Assembly: GCF_018069625.1 (NCBI RefSeq)
Contig: NZ_CP072941.1
Location: forward strand, 8,866,001-8,930,000
Direction of reading: 5' to 3'
DNA length: 64,000 bases
Source: Streptomyces yatensis
GTDB lineage: Bacteria > Actinomycetota > Actinomycetes > Streptomycetales > Streptomycetaceae
Part shown: positions 30,026 through 33,187 of the stretch, in pieces
Position numbering within the stretch: position 1 is the stretch's first letter
How the letters are laid out: each line of letters starts with the position of its first letter
Made by a program: the position numbers and the translations under genes
The notes under the pieces: generated by a model
What the model saw: only the letters and a program-made list of their open reading frames with translations
Told to the model about the DNA's origin: nothing
Database searches by the model: none

Positions 30026-30080
30026 AGTATGTGCCGCCCCCACATCGGACCGGGCCCCAGGGCTGCCTAATGTGCCCCTC

Positions 30081-30887
30081 ATGAGCGCGTCCACCACACC
30101 AGGCCCGGGCCCCCGGCCGTCCGACGGCCTCGATCTGTCCGGCCGTACCGCACTTGTCACGGGCGCCGCCGGGGGCATCGGCCGGGCCTGTACGCTGCGG
30201 CTGGCCACCGCCGGGGCGCGGGTGCGGGCCGTCGATCTGGACGCCGAGGGCCTCACCGACCTGGTCGCCGCGGCCTCCGGACTGCCCGGCCCGGTCGAGG
30301 CCCACCCCCTCGACCTCACCGACCTCGACGCCGCCGAACGGGTCGCCGCCGGCATCGACATCCTGGTCAACAACGCCGGGCTGCAACTCGTCCGGCCCAT
30401 CGAGGACTTTCCGCCCGAGGTCTTCTCCCGGGTGCTCACCGTGATGCTCGAGGCCCCGTTCCGGCTGGTGCGCGGCGCGCTGCCGCATATGTACGCACAG
30501 GGCTGGGGCCGGATCGTCAACGTCTCCTCGGTGCACGGGCTGCGCGCCTCCCCGTACAAGTCGGCCTATGTGGCCGCCAAACACGGTCTGGAGGGGCTCT
30601 CCAAGGTCGCCGCCCTGGAGGGCGCGGCGCACGGGGTGACCTCCAACTGCGTCAACCCCGGCTATGTGCGCACCCCGCTCGTGGAGCGGCAGATCGCCGA
30701 CCAGGCCGAGGCCCACGGGATCTCGCCGGAGCGGGTCGTCGCCGAGGTGATGCTGGCCGATACGGCGGTCAAGCGGCTGGTCGAACCCGATGAGGTCGCC
30801 GAGGCCGTCGCGTATCTCTGCGGTCCGCACACGTCCTTCGTCACCGGTGCCTCGCTGAGTATGGACGGCGGATGGAGCGCCCACTGA
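30081..30887 (+). CDS. 3-hydroxybutyrate dehydrogenase (SDR family)
   Basis: The 268-aa short-chain dehydrogenase has TGAAGGIG cofactor motif, NNAG, catalytic Ser in NVSSVHG, and Y-x3-K in SAYVAAKHG. The pattern VNPGYVRTPLVERQIADQA, with SPERVVAEVMLADTAVKRLVEPDEVAEAVAYL, is characteristic of D-3-hydroxybutyrate dehydrogenases, which oxidise 3-hydroxybutyrate to acetoacetate with NAD. ATG 30081 is used. It lies upstream of the GAF/PucR-type regulator, which may control it and the MHS transporter. Confidence 0.9.
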   Translation: MSASTTPGPGPRPSDGLDLSGRTALVTGAAGGIGRACTLRLATAGARVRAVDLDAEGLTDLVAAASGLPGPVEAHPLDLTDLDAAERVAAGIDILVNNAGLQLVRPIEDFPPEVFSRVLTVMLEAPFRLVRGALPHMYAQGWGRIVNVSSVHGLRASPYKSAYVAAKHGLEGLSKVAALEGAAHGVTSNCVNPGYVRTPLVERQIADQAEAHGISPERVVAEVMLADTAVKRLVEPDEVAEAVAYLCGPHTSFVTGASLSMDGGWSAH

Positions 30888-30924
30888 GCGGCCCATCGGA
30901 TCGGTCACCGGGCGACGAGGGCCG

Positions 30925-31051
30925 ATTGGCTCAGCCACCGGGCCACGAAAACCAATTGGCTCAGCCATTGGCGGACAGTGGCCGATTGGCTCAGCCACTG
31001 GCGGACAAATTGGCTCAGCCATCGACGGACGGTGGTCCATTGGCTCAGCCA
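30925..31051. repeat. Five phased copies of ATTGGCTCAGCCA (TGGC-TCA-GCCA palindrome)
   Basis: Identical 13-mers lie at 30925, 30955, 30985, 31009 and 31039 (starts), spaced 30, 30, 24 and 30 bp. Each contains the dyad TGGC-N3-GCCA. They fill the 251-bp gap between the dehydrogenase stop and the preferred start of the GAF/PucR regulator. The plus frame is open across them (repeating LAQP), but no protein family is recognisable. An operator array is the favoured reading. Confidence 0.8.
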
Positions 31052-31138
31052 CCAGGCCGCGTATTGCCCGGCCGCTCCATAGAAGGGGTACCGGGCCGCC
31101 TTACGGCTGGCGTCGTCGGGCCCGGCGGGAGTATGCCT

Positions 31139-33187
31139 GTGACCATGCCCGACGACCGGCCGGAGGCCCCCTACCTGGAACTGCTCGTACGCGGCGCGCC
31201 CGCCGAGGCGTACGAGCGCCCGGTGCTGCGCGCCCGCGCCGACAAGGCCCCGGCCGACCGGCTGGCGGCCCTGGAGAGCGCCAAGCTGCTCGCCCTGCGG
31301 GTGCGCGGCGAGCTGGAGGGGCGACGGCGCCGCGAGGCCGAACTGTCCGCCCTCTACGAGACCGCCCACGACCTGGCGGGGCTGCGCGATCTGGACGCGG
31401 TGCTCCAGGCCATCGTGCAGCGCGCCCGCTCCCTGCTGGGCACCGAGGTCGCCTATCTGACGCTGAACGATCCGACGGCCGGTGACACCTATATGAGGGT
31501 CACCGACGGTTCGGTCTCGGCCCGCTTCCAGCAGCTGCGGCTCGGCATGGGGGAGGGGCTCGGCGGCCTGGTGGCCCAGACCGCCCGCCCCTATGTCACC
31601 GAGAGCTACTTCCACGATCCGCGGTTCCAGCACACCCACACCATCGACGCGGGCGTCAGGGACGAGGGGCTCGTGGCCATCCTCGGGGTGCCGCTGCTGC
31701 TCGGCAGCGGTGTCATCGGCGTGCTGTTCGCGGCCGACCGCCGGGCCCGGGTGTTCGAACGCGAGCAGACGGCCCTGCTCGGTTCGTTCGCCGCCCATGC
31801 CGCCGTGGCCATCGACACCGCCCATCTGCTCGCCGAGACCCGTGCGGCGCTCGCCGAGCTGGAGGCCGCCAACGAGATCATCCGGGACCGCAGCCGGGTC
31901 ATCGAGCGCGCCTCCGAGGTCCACGACCGGCTCACCGAGCTGGTGCTGCGCGGTGGCGGGGTGCACGACGTGGCCGATGCCGTGGCCGAGGTGCTCAGCG
32001 GTTCCGTGGAGTTCCTCGAGGTCGGCGAGGCGCCCGCGGCGGCCGTCGACCGGTCCCGGGCCGACGGCCACGCGGTGCGCGACGGCGAGGAGGACTGGGT
32101 CGCCGCCGTCTCGGCGGGTGGCGAACTGCTCGGCGCGCTCGTGCTGCGCGGCCACCCCCGGCTCGACCCCATGGACCAGCGCACCCTGGAGCGCGCCGCG
32201 ATGGTCACCTCGCTGCTGCAGCTCGCCCGCCGCTCGGCGGGCGAGGCCGAACAGCGGGTGCGCGGTGAGCTCCTGGACGACCTCCTCGACACCCCCGACC
32301 GCGAGCCCCGGCTGCTGCGCGAGCGCGCCGCGCGCCTGCGGGCGGACCTGGACACGCCCCATGTGGTGCTCGCCGCGGGCATCGAGGCCCTGGACAGCGG
32401 CGCCCCCGCCACCGGTTCCGCCGCCGCACACGGAAGCGGCCCCGGCGGCACACCCGGAAGCGGACCGGGTGCGACACCGGGAAGCAGATCAGGCGGCGCA
32501 CCCGGCGGTGGGCCCGGTGGCGCGCCCGCCGAGGACGCCGAGGGCCGTCGGCGGCTGTGGTCCGCCGCGTCCCATCTGGCGGTCACCCGGCACGGTCTGG
32601 CCGCCACCCGCGACGGCGGCACCGTGCTGCTGCTGCCGCTGGCCGACGGCGACACCGCCGACGCCCTCGCCCGCCGCACCGCCCGGCAGTTGGGCACCGC
32701 CGTACACGCCGCGGTCACCGTCGGCGCCTCCGCACCCGTCCCCGCGCCCGCCGCACGGCCCGGGGAGGTCGCCGCGGGCTATGCCGAGGCGCGGCGCTGT
32801 CTGGCCGCCCTGCGGGTGCTGGGCCGGGCCGGACAGGGCGCCGCCGCCGAGGACTTCGGCTTTCTCGGGCTGCTGCTGGCCGGTACCCGCGAGGGCGCCC
32901 CGGACGGCACCGGCGTCCAGGACTTCGTGACCCGCACCGTGGGCGCGGTCATCGACTACGACGAGCGGCGCGGCACCGAGCTGATCCGCACCCTCGACGC
33001 GTACTTCGCCGGCGGCATGAGCCCGGCCCGTACGAAGGACGCCCTCCACGTGCACGTCAACACGGTGGCGCAGCGGCTGGAGCGGGTCGGGCGGCTGCTC
33101 GGCCCCGACTGGCAGTCGCCCGCCCGCTCCCTGGAGATCCAGCTCGCCCTGCGGCTGCACCGCCTGGCCTCGGCCGTGGGCTACTGA
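31139..33187 (+). CDS. GAF domain/PucR-type C-terminal HTH transcriptional regulator
   Basis: This is a 682-aa protein. It has an N-terminal segment with a coiled coil (about 45-70) and a GAF domain (about 75-225; YETAHDLAGLRDLDAVLQAIVQRARSLLGTEVAYLTL). A central region carries a Gly/Ser/Pro insertion (about residues 415-465). The C-terminus is a PucR-type HTH (FAGGMSPARTKDALHVHVNTVAQRLERVGRLLG). GTG 31139 has GGCGGGAG 7 nt upstream; ATG 31133 or 31145 are alternatives. The frame is open back to 30872 through the palindromic repeats, so a longer product cannot be excluded. It is a likely regulator of the hydroxybutyrate dehydrogenase and the MHS transporter, whose gene it overlaps convergently by 7 bp. 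Confidence 0.88.
   Translation: MTMPDDRPEAPYLELLVRGAPAEAYERPVLRARADKAPADRLAALESAKLLALRVRGELEGRRRREAELSALYETAHDLAGLRDLDAVLQAIVQRARSLLGTEVAYLTLNDPTAGDTYMRVTDGSVSARFQQLRLGMGEGLGGLVAQTARPYVTESYFHDPRFQHTHTIDAGVRDEGLVAILGVPLLLGSGVIGVLFAADRRARVFEREQTALLGSFAAHAAVAIDTAHLLAETRAALAELEAANEIIRDRSRVIERASEVHDRLTELVLRGGGVHDVADAVAEVLSGSVEFLEVGEAPAAAVDRSRADGHAVRDGEEDWVAAVSAGGELLGALVLRGHPRLDPMDQRTLERAAMVTSLLQLARRSAGEAEQRVRGELLDDLLDTPDREPRLLRERAARLRADLDTPHVVLAAGIEALDSGAPATGSAAAHGSGPGGTPGSGPGATPGSRSGGAPGGGPGGAPAEDAEGRRRLWSAASHLAVTRHGLAATRDGGTVLLLPLADGDTADALARRTARQLGTAVHAAVTVGASAPVPAPAARPGEVAAGYAEARRCLAALRVLGRAGQGAAAEDFGFLGLLLAGTREGAPDGTGVQDFVTRTVGAVIDYDERRGTELIRTLDAYFAGGMSPARTKDALHVHVNTVAQRLERVGRLLGPDWQSPARSLEIQLALRLHRLASAVGY

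Follow-up and report, generated by a model that had tools for sequence, protein, structure and literature searches.

The tandem palindromes before a pucR-type regulator gene in Streptomyces yatensis are probably a lineage-specific tandem operator cluster for an FCD-type GntR protein acting in trans, an arrangement that would tie pucR to the carboxylate signal of a carrier encoded beside the GntR gene. By sequence, this reading draws on the identity of the site at the two loci, its conservation at both, a shared half-site register and the co-occurrence of GntR gene and array. Most likely, the array would be a tandem operator for FCD-GntR and not for the PucR protein.

The palindrome array and its flanking genes

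The window, as we call the whole stretch of DNA analysed, comprises 64,000 nt from S. yatensis (GCF_018069625.1, NZ_CP072941.1 8,866,001-8,930,000, forward strand). At 30925-31051 it holds five exact copies of ATTGGCTCAGCCA with spacings of 30-30-24-30, and exact copies of TGGCTCAGCCA start at 30927, 30957, 30987, 31011 and 31041. The features of the locus, with scores from a matrix of GntR-side sites, are:

30072..30887, + strand: 3-hydroxybutyrate dehydrogenase (SDR) gene, upstream of the array (NCBIfam TIGR01963, 337 bits, cut-off 307)
30872..31144, + strand: putative in-frame upstream extension of the regulator, whose ATG overlaps the SDR stop and in which the array is read as x-LAQP repeats
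30925..30939, no strand: candidate operator unit 1, ATTGGCTCAGCCACC, 20.4 bits
30955..30969, no strand: candidate operator unit 2, ATTGGCTCAGCCATT, 23.2 bits
30985..30999, no strand: candidate operator unit 3, ATTGGCTCAGCCACT, 26.8 bits
31009..31023, no strand: candidate operator unit 4, ATTGGCTCAGCCATC, 16.8 bits, 24 bp past unit 3
31039..31053, no strand: candidate operator unit 5, ATTGGCTCAGCCACC, 20.4 bits, with TGGTCCA 5' of the unit
31107..31144, + strand: promoter-like block CTGGCG-N18-GTATGCCTGTGACC, directly before ATG 31145
31145..33187, + strand: GAF / GGDEF-like / PucR-HTH regulator gene (pucR), with a start common to orthologues

The units conform to the near-complete palindrome ATTGGCTSAGCCA and are often accompanied, 8 bp farther out, by an accessory TGGY half-site; most of them fall short of the full palindrome by its outermost A, and TGGC-TCA-GCCA, two inverted TGG/CCA boxes with a 3-nt centre, is found in 5/5 window units. 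The array occupies the stretch 99-213 bp ahead of the conserved pucR start, entirely downstream of the dehydrogenase stop, and Tandem Repeats Finder picks it up with periods of 30 and 24. A strict same-face helical array was considered and rejected, the sites falling at 0.00, 0.86, 0.71, 0.00 and 0.86 of a 10.5-bp turn.

A sequence-only reading of this DNA had reported the five 13-mers with their 30-30-24-30 spacing, named the flanking genes and proposed a genome search for further arrays. The positions are confirmed, and with at most one mismatch the window contains 11 matches to the 13-mer (each palindrome scoring once per strand), whereas shuffles average 1.51 with a maximum of 6, and 0/100 reach 11. 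The gene assignments also hold, TIGR01963 scoring above its cut-off and the regulator comprising GAF, GGDEF_2 and HTH_30 (PucR C-terminal HTH) domains. The genome search found the core TGGCTSAGCCA at 8 places in the 10.36-Mb genome, 5 of them in the array and 3 outside it; the reversed control pattern occurs 21 times per strand. At 5513308 in this genome, AGTGGCTGAGCCACA stands at the upstream end of a gene that we read as penicillin-binding-protein-like, and another TGGCTSAGCCA place, at 7466809, has no promoter assigned to it.

The block before ATG 31145 would be a promoter with a very short or absent 5' leader. Its CTGGCG-N18-GTA form occurs in 13/14 array-bearing and 11/40 array-less loci, two species being represented twice among the latter. 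An earlier survey found a block in 34 of 54 loci and none in 20, with a pattern that itself demanded a block near the start and with one false match (L010) among the 34. A generic scan for sigma-70 promoters and terminators found nothing, including no terminator-like site, and around the pucR promoter the matrix gave no second operator-like site, the next best score of the window being 7.4 bits. ATG 31145 is the likely main start of the pucR-type regulator. Shortly upstream of the pucR-like start, several array-less orthologues (L047, L048, L051, L055, L058, L063, L065, L068 and L069) carry TTNTCCACAG, which resembles a DnaA box, and near forms are found in L011, L016 and L049. A Gly/Ser/Pro-rich low-complexity insert (GSGPGGTPGSGPGATPGS...) is present in the GGDEF-like region of the regulator (window 32420-32540).

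The partner site and the distribution of the array

Outside the array, TTGGCTSAGCCA is found at one place in the S. yatensis genome, where a perfect palindrome, TTGGCTGAGCCAA, separates an FCD-GntR gene (C1:1521656-1522363) from the divergent gene of a MatC_N/CitMHS carrier, 7.37 Mb from the array on the same chromosome. A protein search of 30 genomes, a set partly chosen for carrying the motif, gave a GntR orthologue in 17 (74-100% identity; the copy in G059 has one internal stop codon), and the core TGGYTNAGCCA lies upstream of the GntR gene in 17/17. Seven of these 17 loci (L127, L131, L135, L136, L137, L139 and L140) were not picked by the exact 13-mer, L127 having been picked by a 12-mer. 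In a second search, of 17 genomes, a close orthologue was found in 8, with the exact 15-mer ATTGGCTCAGCCAAT in 7 of the promoters and the variant ATTGGCTGGGCCAAT in one; two of the 7 repeat genomes of the 17/17 set, and the promoter of a 63% GntR paralogue (L158) is outside the 8 read. Two palindromes 56-77 bp apart are present at 7/25 GntR loci scanned.

We built a matrix on 12 GntR-side sites, which comprise 10 distinct strings and include no array unit. Applied to the 64-kb window, it places the five array units in the top five ranks, at 16.8-26.8 bits, ahead of a next best score of 7.4 bits. Unit 3 is the same string as the GntR-side site in L137 and L139, and the TGGCCGA 5' of it is an accessory half-site in the 8-bp register. 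On the GntR side, TGGY stands at exactly -8 in 29/30 distinct contexts (43/60 arms), and at no register from -5 to -7 or from -9 to -13 in any of the 60 arms; in array contexts it is at -8 in 30/72 left and 15/72 right, with other tested registers at 7 or fewer, counts that are inflated by duplication in the array and by common descent on the GntR side.

Several observations concern further occurrences of the site. TTGGCTSAGCCAA is present in 11/246 genomes, beside the GntR gene in 8 and elsewhere in 3 (G032, G049, G128); in G049 and G128 it overlaps, by our reading, the end of a secE-like gene before nusG. The array genome G357 has two further full TTGGCTSAGCCAA palindromes, at C253:25091 and C221:37729, the latter in the gap before an MBL-fold-like gene with an alcohol-dehydrogenase-like gene adjacent (names from reading translations), and the GntR regulon may be larger in this genome. 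In the GntR promoter of G122, half-sites ATTGGTCG are repeated at 8 bp beside the palindrome, with a tandem 21-mer nearby, so repeats have grown on a small scale on the GntR side too. CAGTTATCCACAG adjoins the GntR-side operator in some array genomes (L129, L132, L151).

Arrays of 4-9 units, by our reading, were found in 14 distinct sequences including the window (L075, L079 and L080 duplicate L013, L008 and L007, respectively). A protein scan of genome contigs gave 22 loci, of which 9 carry the array (S. antioxidans, S. iranensis, S. niphimycinicus, S. sabulosicollis, S. endocoffeicus, S. rugosispiralis, S. samsunensis, S. violaceusniger and strain S465), 11 are without it and 2 (L027, L028) are limited to the 3' end of the pucR-like gene; best-segment identity is 90-97% for array loci and 67-85% for array-less ones. 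At the DNA level, 10 of 392 Streptomyces genomes searched had a match, and 8 of these carry the array. It is absent from G069, as read in the sequence, and G180 matches only beyond the array and has TTGGCTSAGCCA solely at its GntR-side site, its SDR-pucR gap having been covered by searching rather than base-by-base reading. A tree of 27 sequences, built on the first part of the regulator, unites the 14 array-bearing ones in one clade with support of 0.94, the nearest branches being the array-less L009, L010, L083 (G180) and L072 (G069). This single clade suggests that the array most likely arose once, and the 4-9 copies among sister species suggest that the copy number of an operator can grow like that of a minisatellite.

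The GntR gene was found in array genomes in 8/8 cases in the first search and 7/7 in the second (13 distinct of the 14), and in array-less genomes in 9/22 and 1/10, respectively; the 9/22 is inflated, some genomes having been chosen for carrying the 13-mer, and the co-occurrence as a whole is confounded by phylogeny. L010 and G180, a sister lineage that lacks the array, have the gene as well, which makes it probable that the GntR protein and its site predate the array. Protein searches did not find GntR in L009, the nearest array-less sister, or in G069, which would mean losses or another history there.

Constraint on the array and alternative readings

The sequence-only reading had set a sharply conserved 13-mer against variable spacers. 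The spacers do drift more, 46 distinct 30-mers having 10 distinct changes in the 13 motif positions and 35 in the 17 spacer positions, but the 13-mer is not strictly invariant in relatives. Among 75 listed sites, which include two that are not true units by our reading (one each in L007 and L076) and which were found with a threshold of at least 10/15 matches to the consensus that favours conserved motifs, the centre base is C in 52 and G in 23, the inner T gives way to C in 9 and to G in 2, and 70 retain the last A. C and G alternate at the centre, as would be expected of a palindrome whose central base is free. TTGG is preceded by A in 74/75 listed sites, although that A is a third codon base and its codon stands for differing residues (R, P, Q, G, S, K). 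The last unit before the regulator (unit 5 in the window) is exactly TTGGCTCAGCCA in 14/14 array-bearing sequences and its distance to the start is constant in the 14, bar a 3-base insertion common to two, while in 12 sequences the 93 bases past it have accumulated 47 changes. Conservation is looser in the first unit, whose 13 sites have 3 changes across 11 sequences. Because duplication links the array units, and descent the GntR-side sites, these counts are not independent. The pattern indicates that the constraint is on DNA rather than on peptide.

If the array were a coding repeat, the regulator would have a 91-residue N-terminal tail from ATG 30872, coupled to the dehydrogenase stop, with the array as a decapeptide repeat R-L-A-Q/E-P-x-x-D-G-G. 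As the sequence-only reading had said, the + frame from this ATG is open through the array into the regulator, and it is open and in register in 14/14 array-bearing sequences, where other frames often have stops. True unit spacings are 24, 27, 30, 39 and 42 and flank indels are also multiples of three; by our count there are 7 independent indels outside the 30-bp unit, giving (1/3)^7 ~ 5e-4. Among array-less loci with both ends found, the frame is open and in register in 6/14, and in L072 too, but shifted or closed in 8/14. (A gap survey of 51 loci found both gene ends in 25, with 21 lacking the SDR end and 5 the start; the frame check covered 19/21 loci, L083 and L010 being left out.) The array-bearing sequences have the open frame in register that a coding repeat needs; their third-position GC is not coding-like, and there is no synonymous excess. 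GC by codon position is 0.82/0.66/0.64 in the pooled extension, against 0.76/0.52/0.90 in the SDR gene and 0.82/0.54/0.92 in the regulator. Synonymous changes number 12/47 in the 3' flank (15.0 expected) and 11/34 in the 5' block (10.6 expected), in ungapped tests made without L024 and L071, which have the 3-base insertion, and for the 5' block also without L007. The same test is positive in the SDR gene (24/40, 11.2 expected), and at the known coding start of the regulator it gave 12/25 (9.05 expected, P 0.14), indicating limited power on short stretches; a stop-avoidance simulation inside the unit, with just 1.46 stops expected in frame 0, has no power. The promoter-like block right before ATG 31145, present in array-less orthologues too, and the third codon base before TTG, kept while the residue changes, also speak against a coding repeat. 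Two outcomes had been named in advance as counting against an operator, translation from 30872 and synonymous-only variation of the 13-mers; the latter is contradicted by a Q/E swap at the centre, and for the former the frame is open in 14/14 but composition and substitution pattern are not coding-like. A coding repeat is disfavoured by these data and we consider it improbable, a translated tail being a minor or additional possibility. An open frame and multiple-of-three indels are, for their part, not predicted by an operator alone. Somewhat less probable still is a dual use, in which the GntR operator array, variable in copy number, would also encode, in frame, an N-terminal tail for the regulator that it controls: with GntR off the DNA, read-through from the dehydrogenase gene would give a long isoform, and with GntR bound there would be only the short isoform, from the promoter before 31145.

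The multi-site operator put forward in the sequence-only reading is supported by conservation at the DNA level and by the same site in the promoter of another regulator, but the GAF/PucR protein proposed as its binder is disfavoured. Autoregulation is common and the array adjoins the pucR-type gene, so that the array might be an operator for the GAF/PucR regulator and the GntR-side site a PucR target. A site of at least 12 bits was, however, found at just 2/40 array-less pucR-type loci (a set with a few species twice), and both lie outside the SDR-pucR gap, L009 having its site ~4.3 kb downstream of the match start and L066 ~1 kb upstream of its match; in the gap itself, the matrix scan found none in the 40, so these loci give no sign of an autoregulatory operator. 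The core upstream of the GntR gene in 17/17 genomes likewise speaks against PucR as the binder, and we regard autoregulation as a distinctly unlikely reading. A neutral intergenic minisatellite that binds no protein would fit the varying unit number (4-9) and spacing, but not the retention of the 13-mer while spacers drift (10 and 35 changes) nor its identity with an independently conserved GntR-side site, and is very unlikely. Finally, the array might work as RNA, its transcripts folding through inter-copy pairing and affecting the mRNA: at -111.7 kcal/mol, the folding energy is below the mean of shuffled sequences, -92.4 (z -3.78; 0/200 shuffles as low). Pairing of palindrome copies with each other accounts for this low energy and is expected of any palindrome array, a divergent promoter carries the same site singly, as DNA, and there is no terminator-like site; such an RNA element seems to us highly improbable.

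Putative mechanism and comparison with known systems

If the array is a tandem operator for FCD-GntR, GntR dimers would be expected to fill its 4-9 sites upstream of pucR, and the bound array would most likely block or modulate transcription from the dehydrogenase gene into the pucR gene, so that one carboxylate signal would govern both the pucR regulator and the MatC/CitMHS-type carrier. Binding of GntR to the array seems probable, and an effect of the array on pucR is, on balance, rather likely; a strict block of read-through from the dehydrogenase gene into pucR is put forward more tentatively, as less likely than not. From the position of the array and the want of an operator-like site over the promoter (next best window score 7.4 bits), a read-through block or an upstream activating array is favoured over promoter occlusion, and plain occlusion or looping is not evident. 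We infer both the sign of the binding effect and the ligand class of the GntR protein. The model links two carboxylate-related Streptomyces loci, 7.4 Mb apart, by one testable site, and provides a candidate binding site for an uncharacterised FCD-GntR protein present in 17/30 Streptomyces genomes (a set partly chosen by motif). The natural series of copy numbers would also allow measuring how site number shapes a regulatory response.

Within the literature open to us, most subscription journals being out of reach, no paper was found with any of five forms of the site string, nor a matching one on PucR and Streptomyces. We know of no 4-9-fold tandem of PdhR boxes. The GntR protein, whose gene neighbours that of a MatC/CitMHS-type carrier, has LldR as its best NCBIfam match (120 bits, cut-off 311) and scores 91 bits against PdhR (cut-off 330). 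We rejected it as an orthologue of either, both scores being far below the cut-offs; it shares the FCD-GntR domain architecture of LldR and is a distant relative of LldR and PdhR.

As far as the part of the source available to us goes, the E. coli PdhR box is (A)ATTGGTnnnACCAAT(T) (PMC7660256). The array unit resembles it in the geometry ATTGG-Y-NNN-R-CCAAT, a palindrome with a 3-nt centre (PMC7660256), and differs in an inner C/G in place of T/A; PdhR is a GntR-family regulator of carboxylate metabolism, and the FCD-GntR described here likewise belongs to the GntR family. NanR offers a precedent for a GntR-family protein with a repeated operator, its dimers binding (GGTATA)3 cooperatively in the portion of the account at hand (PMC8012715), and binding at the array may be cooperative too. 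Within that portion, NanR uses hexamers in direct repeat, its dimers being spaced by about half a turn, whereas the array has full palindromes about three turns apart. Operators of the FadR subfamily typically have a 3-nt centre and extra half-sites, according to the excerpt of the source that we could use (PMC4494728), and our sites are like them in combining a palindrome with a weaker close half-site and in occupying the divergent promoter of the regulator gene (PMC4494728). Unlike the sites in that excerpt, the module of palindrome and half-site occurs here in 4-9 copies, ~30 bp from one to the next, at a distant target. Both loci have GC-N3-GC in place of the canonical GT-N3-AC core of FadR/FCD-GntR operators, and on its sequence we would file the array site as a non-canonical FadR/FCD-GntR operator rather than a textbook member.
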